NCBI RefSeq assembly: GCF_018413645.1 | Contig: NZ_JAHCDA010000004.1 | Location: 62,001-126,000, forward strand | Origin: Roseococcus pinisoli | GTDB taxonomy: Bacteria > Pseudomonadota > Alphaproteobacteria > Acetobacterales > Acetobacteraceae | Direction of reading: 5' to 3' | Length of the DNA: 64,000 nucleotides | Shown: piece after piece, positions 37,927 to 47,187 of the stretch | Layout: the number at the start of each line of letters is the position of its first letter | Numbering within the stretch: the stretch's first letter is position 1 | Made by a program: the position numbers and the translations under genes | Notes under the pieces: model-generated | What the model was told of the DNA's origin: nothing | Database searches by the model: none | The model's input: only the letters and a program-made list of their open reading frames with translations

Positions 37927-38346
37927 ATGCGACAAGAACGGCCGCAGGTCTCATTTCTTCCGGAGATCGCCGTGTCCGGCGGGCCGCTTCGCGTGCCTGC
38001 GAAGCGTGGCGCGTCGCCTCCTGGCAAATTCGGCTCCGCCCTCGCCGTCCTGCTGTTCCTGGCCTTCGGCCTCGCCGGCCCCCTTGCGATCGGCATGATG
38101 CCGCGGGACGGGCAGACGCAATTCGCCGTCATCGCGGCGCCCTGGCGGGGGCTGGAGGAGACGGCGGCGCTGGTCGCCGCAGCGGATGGCCGCATCGTCG
38201 ATGCCGGCGGCCTGCCGAATGTCATTTTTGCTCAATCCGATAGCCCGGCCTTCGTCGCCGCGGCCTATCGCGCCGGTGCCTGGCTCGTGCTCGATCCGGT
38301 GCTGCTGCGCGGTTGCCTTCAAGCCCTTGGGAGGGCCTCGTCATGA
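37927..38346 (+). CDS. Small membrane-anchored protein coupled to hybrid kinase
   Basis: 139 residues: a basic cytoplasmic tail, one hydrophobic segment ([20 protein letters not shown], about residues 37-56) and a soluble C-terminal domain, presumably periplasmic, with [20 protein letters not shown] and [21 protein letters not shown] do not recognise a named family. The stop overlaps the kinase ATG by four bases (ATGA), so the two are made in a fixed ratio; a role as accessory or input subunit of the kinase is an inference. Another Met start is possible, but the membrane segment fixes the frame. Confidence 0.7.
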
Positions 38347-40919
38347 CCGAAATTGAGATGCTGCGGAACCGCTTCGGTCGCGCAATGGTCTGGATCCTCT
38401 GGCTCCACGTCCCGATGATCGCGCTGGCCGCCTACCTCCTCGGCCATGCGCCGGCCCCAGCCGCGGCCTTCTCGGCCGTGCTGGTCGGCGCCTATCACCT
38501 CTGCTGGCGCCTCTGGGGCGCGGCGCCCGTCACGCGCTACATCTCCGCCATCGCCATCATGGGACAGCCGGCGCTGATGCTCTACCTGCTCGCGGGCCAC
38601 CCGTGGCAGATGGACGTACATATGTACTTCTTCGCGGCGCTCGCCCTGCTGATCGGCTGGAGCGACTGGCGCACCATCATCGTCGGCGCCGTGACCATCG
38701 CGCTGCATCACCTCATCCTGAACTTCGCGCTGCCGCTGGCCGTCTTCGCCAACGGGTCCGACCTGCCCCGCGTCTACCTCCATGCCGCGATCGTGCTCTT
38801 CCAGAGCGCGGTGCTCGTGACGCTGAGCAGCACGCTGGTGCGGACCTTCGACCGCATCGCCGCCATGGGGACGGAGGTGCTGATCCAGACGCAGGAGGCC
38901 CAGGCAGCGAACAACGCGAAGACGCTGTTCCTGGCCAATATGAGCCATGAGATCCGCACGCCGATGAACGCGATCCAGGGCTTCAGCCACCTGGCGCTGC
39001 GGACGGAGACCGACCCCCGGCAGCGCGACTACCTGCTCAAGATCAAGACGGCGAGCGGCGCGCTTCTCGGCCTCATCAACGATATCCTGGACTTCTCGAA
39101 GATCGAGGCCGGCAAGCTGCATCTGGAGCGCTCGCCCTTCGATATTCGCGCGGCCCTGGACAGCGTCGTGGCCATCGCCGAGCTGCGGGCGCGGGAGAAG
39201 GGCATCGGCCTGCGCGTCGACATCGACCCGGCCGTGCCGAAGGTGCTGATCGGGGATTCCCTGCGCCTCAACCAGGTCATCCTCAACCTCGTCTCCAATG
39301 CCATCAAGTTCACCGAGCGCGGCTCGGTCACCGTCTCGATCCACTCCGCCTCGGATGTGAGGGACGATATTGCGCTCGAGATCGCCATCCGCGACACGGG
39401 CATCGGCATGACGCCGGAGCAGCAGGCGCGCCTCTTCGCCTCCTTCAGCCAGGCCGATAGCTCCACCACGCGCCGCTTCGGCGGGACCGGCCTCGGCCTT
39501 GCCATCAGCAAGCAGCTGGTCGAGCTCATGGGCGCCAATATCCTGGTTGAAAGCGCGCCCGGCGAGGGCAGCTGCTTCCGCTTCACCATCCGGCTCGGCG
39601 TCGCCGACGCCGCCACCACGGCCAACCGCCCGACGATCGAGGCACTGGGGGCCCTGCGGGTCATGGTGGTCGACGACAACCCCGCGGCGCGCATGACCCT
39701 CGAGGACATGTTCGCGGAGTGGTCGATCAACGTGGAGCTCTTCGCCTCCGCCGCGGAGGCCCTGGCCGAACTGGACGAGTCGGCGCGGCGTGGCACGCCC
39801 TTCGACCTCGTTCTCATGGACTGGAAGATGCCGGGCATGGACGGCATGGAAGCCGCCCGGCGGATCCAGACTTCCGATATCTCCGCGGCCAAGCTCCCCG
39901 TGGTGGTCATGGTCAGCGCCTATGGCCGCGAGGAGATGATGGCCAAGGCCGAAGTGAACGGCATCTCCGCCGTTCTGGTGAAGCCCGTGGACCCCGGGCT
40001 GCTGCTGGAGACGCTGACGAACCTCTTCACCGCCGCCTCCGCCCCGCCCCCTGCCCCCGTGGCCACGCCCCAGGCGCAGGACGCGCTCCCGCAGGTGGCG
40101 CCGCAGTTCCGGGGCGCCCGCGTCCTTCTCGTGGAGGACAACGAGATCAACCGGGAGCTGGCGACGGAGCTGCTGATGGATGCCGGCCTCGTCGTCGACA
40201 CGGCGGAGAACGGCCGGATCGCCTGCGACAAGGTCTTCGCCGACCCGACGGGCTTCGCCGTGGTGCTGATGGACATCCAGATGCCCGAGATGGACGGGCT
40301 CGAGGCCACGATCCGGATCCGTGAGCAGCTTTCGCCGGTCGATCTGCCGATCCTCGCCATGACCGCGCATGCCTATGAGCAGGAGAAGCAGCGCTGCCTC
40401 GAGATCGGCATGAACGACCATATCGCCAAGCCGGTCGATCCGGCCGTGCTGGTCGCGACGCTCGATCGCTGGCTCGGCGCGGCCCGCCCGCCGGCCCGTC
40501 CCGCCGCCCCGCCGGCGCCTGCCCTCGGCCCCGACGACCTGCCGCCCTCCCTGCCGCCCTATGATCTCGCGGCCGCGCTGATCCGCGTGAACGGGAAGCG
40601 GAAGCTGCTGCGCAAGCTCATCGTGGATTTCGGCACCAGCTTCGGCAGCACAGGCGAGACCCTGCGCCAGCAGATCGCCGAAGGACGCATCGACGAAGCC
40701 GCCCGCACCGCCCATGCCCTCAAGGGAACGGCCGCGACGCTCGAGGCGCGTGGCGTGGCCGAGGCGGCCATGCAGCTGGAGGACGCGCTCACCGGCCGCA
40801 AGCCCGGCGATACCGCGCAGCTGGTGAACCGTCTCGAGGCAGAGCTCCGCCCGGCCATCGCGGCGGCCCGGTCGCTCGGGCCCGCGGCTCAGAAGGAATT
40901 GGCGGCGCAGCCGCGCTGA
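38343..40919 (+). CDS. Hybrid histidine kinase with two REC domains and HPt
   Basis: 858-residue membrane sensor kinase. About five or six N-terminal hydrophobic segments (to residue ~175, including [20 protein letters not shown]) form the sensor; then HisKA with His202 in [20 protein letters not shown], HATPase ([33 protein letters not shown]), REC1 with Asp493 ([12 protein letters not shown]), REC2 with Asp644 ([12 protein letters not shown]) and an HPt domain with His791 ([13 protein letters not shown]). All phosphorelay residues are present. Start at 38343 follows GGGAGG. The output regulator is not identified; the REC-PAS-GGDEF-EAL gene downstream is a candidate. Confidence 0.93.
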
Positions 40920-40940: not shown

Positions 40941-41363
40941 CTTTCAATAACGCGATTTGGGCCGCCCGCACGGCCGGGCGGCCGCTCCAGGCTTTGAACA
41001 GTCCGGAAAGCCCCTTCATTTCAAGGCGTGAAGCCCCCCTCCTCGACCCACCGCTGCATCTGCGCGGTGGACGTCCGCGCCGTCAGCCCGCAGGATGAGA
41101 TTCTCCGGACAAGATGCCCGGGGCGGATCGTGCTGATATTGTAGAATGACGGCGACACCCTTGCCGCTTTTGCTTTGCCAGCCGGCCATGGACCTGGGCA
41201 CGATACATGGTCGGGGATGGCGACGCGGGGAATGGGGGAAAATCCTTGACTGTCCATGGACTTCAATCGCGGAGCCCCCCGGGGCCGCCCTCGTCCGATC
41301 GGGACGGGCTGGCGACTGGGATAGTCCGCCCATGGCCATGACGCACAGGAAGGTGCATTGGCA
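40941..41363. other. Intergenic region upstream of the REC-PAS-GGDEF-EAL gene
   Basis: About 420 bases with no gene I can support. It contains the second hairpin noted above, a perfect ten-base palindrome GTCCATGGAC at 41252-41261, and an AGGAAGG ribosome site at 41347-41353. Short open frames on the minus strand show no family resemblance that I would rely on. Confidence 0.5.
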
Positions 41364-43565
41364 ATGCACGGCGGTGATACCGTCGGTTACTCAACCTCGG
41401 CCAGCGCCAGCATGTCTCTGATCCTGATCCTCGACGACCGCGGCACCAATCGTAAGATCCTGGCCCAGCTCGCCGTGTCGGTGGAGCCGTCGGCGGAGGT
41501 CGTCACCTTCGGCAATCCCCTCATCGCCCTCGCCTGGATGGACGAGCACCGGCCCGACCTCGTCATCAGCGACTATCGCATGCCGCATCTGGACGGCGCC
41601 GAGGTGGCCGGCCGCATCCGTTCCAAGACCACGGGCGCCGACGTCCCGATCATCGTCGTCACGGCCTATAACGACCCCGTCTTCCGCCTGCGCGCGCTGG
41701 AAGCCGGTGCCACGGATTTCCTCATCTCGCCGGTCGACCATGCCGAGTTCCGCACGCGCGTGCGCAACCTCCTCGCGCTGCGCCAGCACCAGATCCACGC
41801 CCGCCAGCGGGCACAGGACCTGGCGCGCGACCTGGAAGCCTCGGAGCGCTCGCTCCACGCCATCGTCCGCGAGAGCCGTGAATCCCTGGCCCAGCTGATC
41901 GACACCGTGCCGGCCATGATCAGCGCGACCGATTCCGCCGGGAAGCTGATTTTCGTGAACGCCCGCCAGGCAACGATCGCGGGCTCGACCCCGGCCGCGC
42001 TCGTCGGCCAGGAAGCCCAGTGCATCCTGGGCGAGGGCCGCCTGGAAAAGGCGCTCGCGGCCGATGCGGAGGTCTTCACCTCCGGCCTCCCCATGGCCGG
42101 CTTCGAGGAAGAATTTTCCGACGGGCACGGTGGCTCGCGCACGCTCTTCACGACCAAGGCGCCGCTGCGCGACGGCGAGGGCCGGGTGATCGCGGTCGTC
42201 ACCACCTCGATCGACATCACCGACCGCAAGCGCGCCGAGGAGCAGCTGCTCTATCTCGCGCGGCACGATGCGCTCACCGGCCTGCCCAATCGCTCGATGC
42301 TCAGCGAAAGGCTGCGCGACCGCTGCGTCCATGGCCGCCACGGCCGGGTGGGCGCCCCCTTCGCGCTGCACTTCCTGGACCTCGATCGCTTTAAGGCGGT
42401 GAACGACGCCCTCGGCCACGCGGCGGGCGACCGGATGCTGCGCGAGGTCGCGGCGCGGATCACCGAGGCCCTCGGCGAGGACGACATCGTGGCCCGGCTC
42501 GGCGGCGACGAATTCGCCATCCTGCAGGCCGGCGCCAGCTCAGCCCAGGAGGCCGCGCAATTCGCGCTGCGCATCCGCGACGTGCTGGAGCGCCCCTTCA
42601 CCCTGCTCGGCCGCAGCGTCCAGATCTCGGCCAGCACCGGCATCACCCTCCATCCGGAGGACGCGACCTCCGCCGAGGAGCTCCTCCGGCTTTCCGACCT
42701 CGCCATGTACCGGGCGAAGTCCGAGGGCGGAAACGGCTACAGCTTCTTCGACCCGGCGATGGACCGTGCGGCGCGCGAGGCCATGCAGCTGGAGGCCGAC
42801 CTGCGCAGCGCGTTGGTCCGGGGCGAGTTCGAGCTGATGTGGCAGCCCCAGGTCTGCCTCGCCACCAACCGCATCGTGGGTGCCGAGGGGCTGCTGCGCT
42901 GGCACCATCCCGAGCGCGGCCTGCTCGCGCCTGGCGCCTTCCTGGGCGCTGCCGAGGAAACCGGCCTCATCACCCCCATCACCGCCTGGGTCCTCCGCGC
43001 GGCGGCGCGCCAGGGCGCGGCCTGGGCACGGCTGAAGGGCGGCGGCATCCGGGTCTCGGCCAATATCTCGCCCTCGCTCTTTCGGCAGGCCGACGTCCGC
43101 GGCCTCGTCGCCGCGGCCATCGACGAGGCGGGGCTGTCGCCCGAGATCTTCGACATCGAGCTCACCGAGCGCGTGCCGATGGACGATCTGGAAAAGGTCG
43201 CGGCCACCCTGCGCGAGCTGCGCGAACTCGGTGTCTGTCTCTCGATCGACGATTTCGGGGTCGGCTATTCCTCCCTCGTCTATGTGAAGAGCTTCCCCGT
43301 CCAGCGCCTGAAGATCGATCGCTCCTTCGTTTCGCAACTGCCGGAGAACCATATCGACGCCGCCATCGTCGCCGGCGTCGTCTCCCTCGGCCACAATCTC
43401 GGCATGCGCGTCGTGGCGGAGGGCGTGGAGACGCAGGAGCAGCTGGACACCGTGCGCGCGCTCGGCTGCGACGAGATCCAGGGCTATTTCGTGAGCTATC
43501 CCGTCACCGCCTCTGCCCTGGAGCAGCGGCTGATCGAGGCCGACGCGCCGGTCCACGGCGCGTGA
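41364..43565 (+). CDS. REC-PAS-GGDEF-EAL cyclic-di-GMP regulator
   Basis: 733-residue soluble response regulator for c-di-GMP turnover. Domains in order: REC (residues ~17-135; phospho-acceptor in [16 protein letters not shown]), coiled linker, PAS (~165-290; [16 protein letters not shown]), GGDEF (~300-465; [13 protein letters not shown] and intact LGGDEFAI), EAL (~480-730). The EAL motif reads EGLLRW instead of EALxRW, but other catalytic residues look kept: [46 protein letters not shown]. So synthesis is likely and hydrolysis plausible. Start ATG 41364 follows AGGAAGG; TTG 41358 and ATG 41412 are alternatives. 67 bases before the RpfC-like gene. Confidence 0.93.
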
Positions 43566-43632
43566 CAGGCTGGCCGATGACGCCGGCATCACCCTCGCGA
43601 CGACCACCGGAAGGCGCCCAGGGCGGCCGGCC

Positions 43633-46116
43633 ATGAGCACGCCGTCCTCGCCCACGCCGCGCGCCCGCCTGTTCAGCTTCCGCACGCTGCGGGGGCGGCC
43701 GGACACCGAGCACGAGATGAGCTTCAACCGGCTCGCCTTCGCGCTCATCATCACCGTCTTCCTGCTGCTGGAGAACGCCCCCCGCCACACGCTGGAGGTC
43801 GTGGGCGCCTATTGGCTCCTCGGCCTCGCCATCTTCGCCCACATCCTGATCTTCCCGGCGGTCAACAACCCACGGCGCGTCTTCACCATGTTCGTGGACG
43901 TGGCGCTCCTCTCCTACGAGCTCCATGTCGGCGGCGAGAAGACCTCGGTCATGGCCTCGCTGTACCTCTGGGTGATCATCGGCAACGGCTTCCGCTTCGG
44001 CGTCACCTGGCTGCGCATCTCCCAGGCGATGAGCCTGGTGGGCTTCACCTGCGTCTTCCTCTTCACGCCCTTCTGGCGCGACCAGGTGCATCTCTCGGCC
44101 GGCTTCATCCTGGGCATCATCGCGATCCCGACCTATTCGGCCACGCTGATCCACAAGCTCTCGGCAGCCAAGGCGCAGGCCGAGGCGGCCAACCAGGCGA
44201 AGAGCATGTTCCTGGCCAGCGTGAGCCACGAGCTGCGAACCCCGCTGAACGCCATCATCGGCATGGGCGGGCTGCTGCAGATCTCGGAGCTGAACGCCGA
44301 GCAGCGCGAGATGGCCAGTACGGTCACCGACGCCGGCAGCAACCTGCTGCGCCTCATCGAAAGCATCCTCGACTTCTCCCGCATCGAAGCGGGGCAGATG
44401 CTGATCAAGCCTGCGCCCTTCGATCTGCCGGTCCTGCTGGACGAGGTCCGCCGGATGCTGGCCGCCACCGCGCGCGAGAAGGGCCTGCGCTATTCCTTTC
44501 ACCTGACGCCCCGGACCCCCCGGCATCTGGTGGGCGACGTCTCCCTGACGCGGGAGGTTTTACTGAACCTGGTCGGCAACGCGCTGAAGTTCACCTCCAA
44601 GGGCGGCGTGGTGGTGGCCGTCGACGCGGAGGCCTCGAATACCGGGACCCGGCTGCGCTTCGAGGTGACGGATACCGGCATCGGCATCGCGCCCGAGGCC
44701 CAGACGCGCATCTTCGAAGCCTTCTCCCAGGCCGATGCCACCATCATCAACCGCTTCGGCGGTACCGGCCTGGGCCTGGCGATCAGCCGCCGGACGGCCC
44801 AGCTGCTGGGCGGCGAGATCGGCGTCGACAGCATGGAGGGGGTGGGCAGCACCTTCTGGTGCACGCTGCCCATGGAGGTGCAGACCGGGGCCGAAGAGGC
44901 CGCGCCGGGCGAGGCCGTCCTTCTCGCCCCCGGCACCTTGGAGCAGGCCGAGGCCTGGCGCGCGGCCGGGCTGCAGCTGCGGCCCGCGACTACGCTGGCC
45001 GAAGCCGTGGCGGCGCTTGAGGTGCTTCCGGCGGCCGTGCCGCGGATCCTGGTCGTGGATTCGGAGGCGCTGGCCATGCCACCCACCTCCCTGGCCCAGA
45101 CGCTGGAGGCGCTGGATCCGAATGGCGCCTGGCGGACGATCCTGCTGGCGCCCGAGGGAACGGAAGGTCTTCCGGCGGTGCCGCTGCGCCGCGCCTTCCT
45201 CTCCGTATTGCCCCCTGCCCCGGCGGCCGCTCAGCTGGCGGCGGCACTGCGCTTGGCCGGCAGCGCGACACGAAGCCAAGAGGAAATGCTGCCGCAGCGG
45301 CTGCCGCGCCGCCGCCTCAACGTCCTGGTCGCGGACGACAACCGGGTGAACCTGCGCGTGGTCTCGCGCATCCTCGAGACGGTCGGCCACGAGCCCACCC
45401 TCGTCTCGGATGGCGAGGAGGCGCTGGATATCCTGGAGGAGCGGGAATTCGATTTGGTCCTGATGGACCTGAACATGCCCGGCATCGGCGGGATCGAGGC
45501 CGCGAAGCTCTATGCGATGCAGTCGCTCGGGCGCCGCACCATCCCCTGGCTCGCCGTCACGGCGGATGCGACGGATGAGGCGAGGCAGCGCTGCGAGGAG
45601 GCGGGCTTCGCGGCCTGCCTCGTGAAGCCGCTCACGCCGGCGGCGCTCCTGGCCGCCATCGACGAGCTCGACCTGCCGGACGAGCCGCAGCAGGAAAGGC
45701 CGAAGGAAATCGCGGCCATCGCGAGCCATCCGCGCTTCCGGCCGACAGGTCCCGTGCTGGTCGACCAGCGCGCGCTGGACGATCTGGAGCTGCTCGGCGG
45801 CCCCGAATTCGCGCGCGAGGTGGTGACCGAGTTCCTGGAAGACGCCGAGATCACCCTAGGCGAGCTGGCCCGGGCCGTGAGTGCCGGCGATTCCAGCACT
45901 TTCCGGGCGAAGGCCCATGCGCTGCACAGCGCGGCCGCCAATGTCGGCGCCCGCGCCCTTTGCGAGCTCTGCCAGCTCTGCCGGAACGTCGGGCCCGACG
46001 TCCTGAAGGAGCAGGGCCGCTCGATCGTCGACCGCCTCGCCACCGAGGTGGAGCGCGCCCGCCCGCTGCTGCTGCGGGAAGGCACGGGTAGCGGGATGGG
46101 CCAGCGGCGCAACTGA
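43633..46116 (+). CDS. rpfC: RpfC-like hybrid sensor kinase (DSF receptor candidate)
   Basis: 827-residue membrane kinase. The N-terminus has [20 protein letters not shown], close to the D(S/T)EH start of the RpfC sensor domain, and about five membrane helices to residue ~175. HisKA with His199 ([16 protein letters not shown]), HATPase ([36 protein letters not shown]), REC with Asp612 ([14 protein letters not shown]) and C-terminal HPt with His762 ([15 protein letters not shown]) follow, the exact RpfC order. A second, receiver-like segment without clear acidic pocket lies at ~430-540. In Xanthomonas RpfC binds DSF and phosphorylates RpfG. Here the convergent gene is an RpfF-like synthase, which supports the naming. 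Confidence 0.88.
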
Positions 46117-46174
46117 CCTCCCCGCTCCCGCCGGTCTCCGCTAACGCAGCGGCGCCGCGTGAACGGGACCTCCG

Positions 46175-46203
46175 GCCGACGGGCCTGCTCGGGCCCCGTC
46201 GGC
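46175..46203. terminator. Hairpin between rpfC-like and rpfF-like genes
   Basis: Nine-base-pair stem GCCGACGGG/CCCGTCGGC with further partial pairing inside; likely ends both convergent transcripts. Confidence 0.55.
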
Positions 46204-46239
46204 TGCCCTGCTCCGGGCTTTCCGCGTCTCGCCAAGGCG

Positions 46240-47187
46240 TCACTCCGCCGCCATGGCCACCGGCATCCGCACGCCGACTTCCGCCGTCAGGCGCTTCTCC
46301 TGAGCCTGGGTGAGGCGCAGCATCTTGCGGATATCCATGTCGGAAACGCCCAGCGCCGTCTCGGCCCAGATGTCCACGACGTCCTTGAGCTCGGGCAGCG
46401 TCACCGGGTTCACGCGGCGGCGGACGCGCAGCAGCGCCTGCTGGGCATTGTGCTTGCGGGTGCCGTTGGCGATGTAGTCGCGGACGGCCGCCTCGCCCTC
46501 GCCCGGCTCGGCCAGGACGTTCACGATGCCCATCGCGTGCAGTTCCTCAGCCGAATAGAGGCGGCCGGACATGATCATCTTCTCCGCCTCGAACTGGCCG
46601 ATCCGGCGCGAAAGGAAGCTGTAGGCGCCCATGCCGGGGAAGAGGTTGAAGAGGATCTCCGGCAGGCCGAACTTCGCCTGGCGCTCGGCCACAATGACGT
46701 CGAAGGCCAGGGCGCATTCGAAGCCGCCGCCGAGCGCGTCGCCCTGGACGAGGGCGATGGTGATCACCGGGGCCTGGAACGCTTCCGCATTGCCGTGGAT
46801 GGCCTCGACGCAGAGGTGGCCGTAGCGGCGCAGCGCGGTCAGGTCGCGGTTGCGGATCTTCTCCGCGAAGAGGGCGAGGTCGCCGCCGAGGTTGAAGATG
46901 CCCGGCAGCCGGCTGCCCATGACGTAGTAGCGCAGCGCCGTGCCGAATTCCGACCGCCGCTCGGCCGAAAGGGCATCACGGAGCAGGGCCTGCTGGGCCA
47001 GGATGTCCTGCAGCAGCTCCAGCGTGAAGCTCGGCTTCGGGCCGGGGCGCATATAGGCCCAGAAGCTCGCCGTATCGGCCTCGAGACGGGTCTCGAGCGC
47101 GTTGAAGCGGGCGGCCGCCAGAAGCGCGGAAGGATCGCCGAAGGAACGCGGGGCGGTCTGGGTTTCCGGCTGGGAGAGGAAGGTCAT
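46240..47187 (-). CDS. rpfF: RpfF-like DSF synthase (crotonase superfamily)
   Basis: 315-residue enoyl-CoA hydratase-fold enzyme. RpfF makes cis-2-unsaturated fatty acid signals (DSF) from acyl-ACP by thioester cleavage and dehydration. The match to RpfF rather than ordinary crotonases is strong: FNLGGDLALFAEKIRNRDL, ALVQGDALGGGFECALAFDV with the first catalytic Glu, KFGLPEILFNLFPGMGAYSF with the second, SGRLYSAEELHAMGIVNVLA, and the C-terminal ELKDVVDIWAETALGVSD. Start at 47187 after GGAG. It is convergent with the RpfC-like kinase. Chain length of the product cannot be read from sequence. Confidence 0.92.
   Translation of the reverse strand: MTFLSQPETQTAPRSFGDPSALLAAARFNALETRLEADTASFWAYMRPGPKPSFTLELLQDILAQQALLRDALSAERRSEFGTALRYYVMGSRLPGIFNLGGDLALFAEKIRNRDLTALRRYGHLCVEAIHGNAEAFQAPVITIALVQGDALGGGFECALAFDVIVAERQAKFGLPEILFNLFPGMGAYSFLSRRIGQFEAEKMIMSGRLYSAEELHAMGIVNVLAEPGEGEAAVRDYIANGTRKHNAQQALLRVRRRVNPVTLPELKDVVDIWAETALGVSDMDIRKMLRLTQAQEKRLTAEVGVRMPVAMAAE

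Follow-up and report, generated by a model that had tools for sequence, protein, structure and literature searches.

A putative DSF-family signalling locus with a GGDEF-EAL output in the alphaproteobacterium Roseococcus pinisoli

Can an alphaproteobacterium make and answer a signal of the diffusible signal factor (DSF) family of cis-2-unsaturated fatty acids and, if so, through which effector? The question is raised by three genes of Roseococcus pinisoli (Acetobacteraceae; genome G000, 4.79 Mb in 12 contigs) lying in a stretch of 64,000 nucleotides, G000:C7:62001-126000, which we call the window: a response regulator with GGDEF and EAL domains, a hybrid sensor kinase resembling RpfC and, convergent with it, a synthase resembling RpfF. 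An earlier note, made from the sequence alone, had read them as a DSF quorum-sensing locus, and open reading frames (ORFs) and Pfam domains place all three genes where it had put them. Gene content, homology, linkage, co-occurrence, receiver kinship and intact catalytic motifs can be observed directly, and we consider, with a probability of roughly 0.78, that the locus encodes a complete DSF-family signalling circuit; this figure refers to the whole circuit and not to the direction in which it would change cyclic di-GMP (c-di-GMP).

The synthase scores 362.1 bits against the NCBIfam model PRK08788 (cut-off 177), and the four solved proteins nearest to it in sequence are the RpfF of the RpfF-RpfC complex (3m6m), 7zq7, the Cronobacter RpfF (6dgn) and the Burkholderia cenocepacia DfsA (5fus), with E values of 4e-52 to 4e-47; the fifth, Pseudomonas aeruginosa DspI (5wyb), follows at 8e-18. 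When its AlphaFold2 model (mean predicted local distance difference test score, pLDDT, 83.9; residues 1-40 under 50) was searched with Foldseek, the first 12 matches were all RpfF or DfsA chains (E 6e-27 to 3e-23, template modelling (TM) score to target 0.90-0.94), the best being RpfF 7zq7 and 3m6m and DfsA 5fus, while among the 50 matches listed other crotonases start at E 8e-17 and have TM scores to target of at most 0.83. The earlier note had proposed a phylogeny, with grouping among housekeeping hydratases as the outcome that would count against a DSF synthase. In our quick maximum-likelihood tree of 137 rows (124 of the 125 RpfF loci surveyed below, L203 being too short, plus the window, four PDB segments and eight hydratases), the 129 RpfF-like rows, including the four segments of solved DSF synthases, split from the hydratases with a Shimodaira-Hasegawa-like approximate likelihood ratio (SH-aLRT) of 100; this outgroup comprises eight of the genome's own 18 other ECH_1 proteins, and its branches are long. 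The window synthase falls inside a clade of 89 rows (support 96) whose source records are mostly alphaproteobacterial, the other titles being Mycobacterium (L126), Terriglobia (L130) and Burkholderiales (L166). Both catalytic glutamate motifs singled out by the earlier note are kept: E182 and E202 (longest-ORF numbering, aligned to RpfF) are invariant in 19/19 aligned homologues, and we take the pair in X. campestris RpfF, in role and numbering, to be E141 and E161. The assignment to the DSF synthase group (RpfF/DfsA, PRK08788) holds on these comparisons, and a cis-2 product is predicted.

The synthase does not occur alone. In genome scans at a threshold of E at most 1e-40, it was present in 24 of the 385 genomes of an even draw from the class, and a profile of the RpfC-type sensor also matched 24; the two occur together in 22 genomes from 14 families, with the sensor alone in two and RpfF alone in two (Fisher p 2e-31, uncorrected for relatedness). 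Both sensor-only contigs (4145 and 5366 bases) end within 264 bases of the rpfC match. Among the 22 two-gene genomes, G268 and G383 carry rpfF and rpfC at distant loci, and in G182, G252 and G361 the genes are on different contigs, with rpfF near a contig end. The extension of DSF genes to Alphaproteobacteria suggested by the earlier note is therefore real, and wider than one locus. In 398 genomes drawn from the phylum, the synthase was present in 62, many of them supplied by one family (f188). These data also bear on the idea that the enzyme, though of the RpfF clade, releases an acyl product of another kind, such as a saturated or 3-hydroxy free fatty acid, as a thioesterase would, and that the kinase senses this product or general membrane fatty acids, so that the locus would serve lipid homeostasis and not cell-to-cell signalling. 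The B. cenocepacia enzyme is described as having an unspecific acyl-acyl carrier protein (ACP) thioesterase activity, and one has been suggested for RpfF of Stenotrophomonas (PMC4517397; this and the other PMC-numbered sources are cited for the parts of them available); a different ligand could also explain why most of the window's lineage departs from Xanthomonas at sensor position 22. However, the conservation of both catalytic glutamates speaks against this idea, as does the finding of the sensor kinase almost only alongside the synthase, which is the look of a signal pair, and we regard it as quite improbable.

The kinase has the domain order of RpfC, as had been claimed: Pfam finds HisKA, HATPase_c, a receiver (REC) and Hpt after a membrane region of about 185 residues. 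Among PDB chains matching only the receiver, the top one is 3m6m_D (E 4.7e-24), the receiver of RpfC as solved together with RpfF; in RpfC this domain binds the synthase and inhibits it. A model of residues 1-190, built from 49 sequences, shows six long helices with a mean pLDDT of 93.5. The DTEH start of the sensor is equally real, within RPDTEHEM. In Xanthomonas RpfC, residues R15, D17, S18, E19 and Q22 are essential for DSF sensing, and S18T keeps function (PMC5391125); at these sites the window kinase has R, D, T, E and M, which makes four of five if Thr is counted for Ser18. Among 97 sensors, the window's and those of 96 loci, 96 keep Glu19. The mean numbers of lysine plus arginine in these sensors, for the N-terminus, the five loops and the C-terminus in turn, are 6.4, 0.5, 2.9, 0.1, 1.6, 0.4 and 3.0, a charge pattern that, by the positive-inside rule, predicts six membrane helices and a cytoplasmic DSEH motif (window 43633-44187 and the 96 homologous sensors). 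For the homologue PA1396, PhoA and LacZ fusions support five helices with the N-terminus outside (PMC6536496); the disagreement between the two models is confined to the first half of the sensor domain.

The third gene determines which output the circuit would have. Its product contains Response_reg, PAS_4, GGDEF and EAL domains (Pfam), so that its output is GGDEF-EAL, and HD-GYP was not found in it; in the genome, HD_5 has two matches, both on contig C5, the window being on C7. The protein thus has the PAS-GGDEF-EAL trait of RpfR, although, unlike RpfR, it begins with a receiver. Presumably, the FI domain of RpfR, a name taken from the title of 6dgn, sits where the window regulator has this receiver. 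In the receiver tree, regulators encoded near RpfC, 16 with GGDEF-EAL (the window's included), 15 with a PAS-histidine kinase (PAS-HK) and six with HD-GYP from RpfF-RpfC loci, fall on one side of a branch with an SH-aLRT of 97; on the other side are 30 receivers, namely the RpfC receiver and 29 others of the window's genome (the best 30 of its 52 receiver matches were taken, one of them the window's own). The regulators had been chosen by similarity to the window receiver (E below 1e-15), which favours their grouping, and the inner forks are weak because the alignment has only 125 columns. An earlier tree, now superseded, in which L031, a true regulator, was counted as a control, did not place the regulators in one clade in its best topology, and a single clade was not rejected there (approximately unbiased test, p-AU 0.49). 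By sequence, the regulator's receiver belongs to an RpfG-type lineage that is shared by three output types. The GGDEF and EAL domains named by the earlier note are there, but the gene is not the loose neighbour that it had seemed. Of 67 regulators with GGDEF-EAL output, 59 have an intact GGDEF motif, and all 67 have DDFG, K(I/V)D and the E-x-L-x-R signature.

Could the adjacency of this regulator nevertheless be incidental, with the kinase acting on another regulator? We surveyed 125 RpfF loci, retained from 130 after removing duplicates (L027, L028, L060, L185) and L031, which has no RpfF; the shares are biased, as 80 of the 130 are the closest relatives among the matches listed from a named collection. 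RpfC lies within the examined stretch at 96 of the 125; in seven of the remaining 29 the sequence breaks off less than 1.5 kb downstream of rpfF. The 96 RpfC loci comprise 66 with REC-GGDEF-EAL, 15 with REC-PAS-HK, six with REC-HD-GYP, five with another REC protein and four with RpfC alone, and the 29 comprise eight with a GGDEF-EAL protein without receiver, one with a REC protein (L062: REC-PAS-HisKA_2) and 20 with none, the seven truncated loci being among these 20. The nearest rpfC is convergent with rpfF in 88 of the 96 loci, divergent in four (three Microvirga loci and L033) and co-directional in four. In some loci (L058, L128) the regulator gene stands apart from rpfC, and four of the 96 show no such regulator (in one of these, L026, the GGDEF-EAL gene is cut by the contig end), as an incidental adjacency would allow. 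In contrast, a regulator with an RpfG-type receiver lies within 8.5 kb in 92 of the 96, and its receiver is of one lineage with RpfG-type receivers over three output types, so we consider it highly improbable that the regulator is not the phosphorylation partner of the kinase.

How would the complete circuit work? From the enzyme family, the RpfF-like protein is expected to dehydrate 3-hydroxyacyl-ACP and to release a cis-2 fatty acid. The RpfC-like membrane kinase would sense this product and autophosphorylate, and the phosphate would be handed on, by the kinase's own REC and Hpt domains, to the REC domain of the adjacent regulator, as the domains and the Xanthomonas precedent indicate. What the enzyme makes, what the kinase binds, the transfer of phosphate and which way c-di-GMP changes are all inferred here from known relatives. 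The intact EAL domain would most likely degrade c-di-GMP once the receiver is phosphorylated, so that signal build-up would lower c-di-GMP. This is the simplest reading, as a fall is the output of both known DSF circuits: in Xanthomonas, the HD-GYP phosphodiesterase is believed to be freed from inhibition when the RpfG receiver is phosphorylated (PMC3749722), and in Burkholderia, binding of the Burkholderia signal (BDSF) activates RpfR for c-di-GMP degradation (PMC4504480). Because the GGDEF domain is intact too, we give this direction little better than even odds. In the loci with a kinase output, the signal would feed a further phosphorelay. It is also tempting to speculate that the circuit has two sensors, the PAS_4 domain of the regulator binding the signal inside the cell and RpfC reporting its level outside or in the membrane, which would extend the complete circuit and not exclude it. 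The REC-PAS-GGDEF-EAL order resembles RpfR with an N-terminal receiver (RpfR order from PMC4504480), and DSF is reported to bind the PAS_4 domain of RpfS (PMC5391125); PAS_4 is, however, a common domain whose membership alone is silent on the ligand, and we consider this addition unlikely.

Several observations weigh against a complete DSF circuit of this form. The synthase misses the cut-off of the RpfF equivalog NF053515 (NCBIfam), with 212.9 bits against 550. Of two yardsticks, both partial chains, the X. campestris segment scores 526.7 and the DfsA segment 184.8, below the window synthase; the cut-off marks close xanthomonad orthologues, and therefore we neither file the synthase there nor take the score as a test of DSF synthesis. 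At sensor position 22, where Gln is essential in Xanthomonas RpfC, 66 of 67 sensors of GGDEF-EAL loci have Met, Ile or Leu, while Gln is found in 20 of 21 sensors of PAS-HK and HD-GYP loci. Thirteen of the 125 RpfF loci show neither RpfC nor such a regulator despite at least 7.5 kb visible downstream of rpfF. The window's form is not the norm of the class, since in the even draw only two of the 24 RpfF genomes have the GGDEF-EAL form (the window and G166) and 15 have the PAS-HK form; of the rest, three are truncated at a contig end, G383 is built like L062, two lack RpfC nearby and G318 was not among the loci examined. Three further GGDEF-EAL loci of Alphaproteobacteria (G499, G655, G761) were among the loci examined from the phylum draw. 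Finally, within the genus the synthase is present in only six of 21 genomes; the sensor is in the same six and in G013, whose contig ends inside rpfC.

Residue 22 was also considered as a predictor of the output type and, despite a strong raw association, rejected, only two independent pairs being available on supported branches. The exceptions, L058 (a kinase-output locus within the GGDEF-EAL synthase lineage) and L075 (a GGDEF-EAL locus outside it), follow lineage, and with so few pairs we take the residue as a trace of history and not as evidence of function. The receiver of L058 is placed among the PAS-HK receivers (unstarred support), so this locus may have swapped its whole regulator gene.

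Comparison with known systems shows what is shared and what differs. The xanthomonad RpfF-RpfC-RpfG system has, like the window, convergent synthase and two-component genes, a hybrid kinase with membrane sensor, HisKA, HATPase_c, REC and Hpt, the D(S/T)EH motif in the sensor, and a regulator whose receiver is in one lineage with REC-HD-GYP receivers. It differs in that the window effector is PAS-GGDEF-EAL and not HD-GYP, sensor residue 22 is Met and not Gln, the host is alphaproteobacterial, and no rpfB- or rpfH-like protein is found among five neighbouring window proteins scanned. With the RpfF-RpfR BDSF system of Burkholderia and Cronobacter, the window shares an RpfF-type synthase near a PAS-GGDEF-EAL protein with c-di-GMP output, but here a membrane kinase comes between the two, and the output protein has a receiver at its N-terminus. 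The rpfFCG genes of Leptospirillum likewise join RpfF and RpfC homologues outside the xanthomonads, and there DSF-family compounds were found in culture; as described, the Leptospirillum regulator is an RpfG with HD-GYP and all genes of the cluster point the same way (PMC8357829). P. aeruginosa PA1396, which senses DSF, has an RpfC-related input domain with the conserved Glu, but it is described as a sensor of other species' signals, and the available part of that paper mentions no adjacent synthase (PMC6536496).

A 2015 review recognises two core pathways of DSF perception, RpfC-RpfG and RpfR (PMC4504480). By gene content, the circuit of the window seems to have kept the synthase, the sensor and the receiver, while the effector differs. 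What would be new here is not the presence of rpf genes in one alphaproteobacterium but such a circuit with another effector. We lean, if narrowly, towards a third core DSF circuit in which RpfF, RpfC and an RpfG-type receiver form the conserved core and the effectors attached to it are exchangeable: HD-GYP in genomes from other classes of the phylum, PAS-GGDEF-EAL or PAS-histidine kinase in Alphaproteobacteria. The output type would have changed along the way, to judge from L058 and L075, and the PAS domain may be a second, internal receptor. In three of the six HD-GYP loci, the synthases group with the Xanthomonas segments (support 100). Loci from Acetobacteraceae, Hyphomicrobiales, Sphingomonadales and other groups point to such a third layout, with Gluconacetobacter, Acetobacter, Microvirga, Pseudovibrio and Ancylobacter among the culturable genera that carry them. 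If this is true, soil, plant and marine communities in which fatty-acid signals are seldom sought would be expected to use them, and a single receiver lineage with three effector types would be a natural experiment in phosphorelay rewiring.

Among the matches listed in our search of the DSF literature, which covered few subscription papers, there was no report of an alphaproteobacterial DSF synthase, and earlier reports are possible. For Bradyrhizobium, an RpfB-like FadD, a signal-inactivating enzyme, is described, and the available text names no RpfF there (PMC10226988). The main text, as available, of a survey of c-di-GMP proteins in five alphaproteobacterial orders does not contain 'rpf' (PMC9756655), a review of acetic acid bacteria, in its accessible part, names DSF as a signal class and no more (PMC7889782), and another, on acidophiles, mentions DSF genes in an annotation of 83 species, with no alphaproteobacteria named in the portion at hand (PMC10972369).

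Coordinates are collected in Table 1. The kinase gene starts 67 bp downstream of the regulator gene. The right end given by the earlier note, 47187, is the likely start of the synthase because this Met is common to two close relatives in the alignment, while its left end, 41364, is one of several candidate starts of the regulator: the frame opens at 41358, 41364 is the next Met and 41412 follows, and the matches of relatives begin at residues 2 to 21. The hairpin between the convergent genes was considered as a terminator and dropped (fold z -1.06; 32 of 200 shuffles at least as good).

Table 1. Features of the DSF-type locus, in window positions
Feature	Position	Strand	Basis
REC-PAS_4-GGDEF-EAL response regulator	41358..43565	+	Longest ORF; Pfam; receiver tree; GGDEF and EAL motifs intact
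RpfC-like hybrid sensor kinase	43633..46116	+	Pfam: HisKA, HATPase_c, Response_reg (REC), Hpt after N-terminal membrane sensor
DSF-sensing motif region RPDTEHEM, kinase residues 22-29	43696..43719	+	Compared with Xanthomonas RpfC residues
Gap between convergent stops of kinase and synthase, 123 bp	46117..46239	.	G+C-rich hairpin
RpfF-like DSF-family synthase (putative), crotonase fold	46240..47187 (longest ORF to 47265)	-	ECH_1 (Pfam); convergent with kinase

Within the genus, the three genes are found in two settings. In G008 the gene order from rpoH to an M20 peptidase is the same as in the window, and in G012 and G016 there is no rpoH match near the triad and rpfF is co-directional with rpfC. 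Such scattered occurrence, with two settings, points to a cassette that has been lost or transferred. All eight triad-free genomes of the genus that were tested keep rpoH and the gene following it (a pseudouridine-synthase-like ORF, named by eye), and the stretch examined in them showed no triad and no match of over 45% identity to the window's other hybrid kinase or to the M20 peptidase. We therefore read these sites as turnover of a larger block and not as a clean insertion of the triad. That second hybrid kinase (HisKA, HATPase_c, two REC, Hpt) lies just upstream of the locus, at window 38313-40919, and at the same place in G008. No LuxI match was found in the genome; the control genomes gave none either, and we claim nothing about an acyl-homoserine-lactone synthase.

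Some of the surveyed loci deserve mention in their own right. Near an RpfF-RpfC pair of Roseomonas populi, L128:5532-7373 encodes a receiver, PAS_4, GAF and PAS_3, with no output domain by Pfam. At L033:8127-10487 (G049), a second, convergent RpfC-type kinase flanks rpfF on its other side. The window-clade RpfF of L122, L130, L132, L139, L141, L148, L152, L160 and L179 has no RpfC or receiver-bearing regulator within about 8 kb downstream, and L122, L130 and L139 form one tight synthase group. At L162:9127-11487, L167:8883-11396 and L186:5512-7887, a window-clade RpfF accompanies a GGDEF-EAL protein of about 790-840 amino acids and no RpfC, an RpfR-like layout, the proteins of L162 and L186 being PAS_7-GGDEF-EAL (Pfam). 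Loci of the Inquilinus type (L116:11827-13936, L115:4145-5068 and L126:11902-13649, the last titled Mycobacterium) encode, between rpfC and the regulator, one or two short additional proteins; these have the RpfC sensor and the start of a kinase and are reminiscent of Xanthomonas rpfH, and in L116:12989-13936 HisKA is the sole Pfam match.

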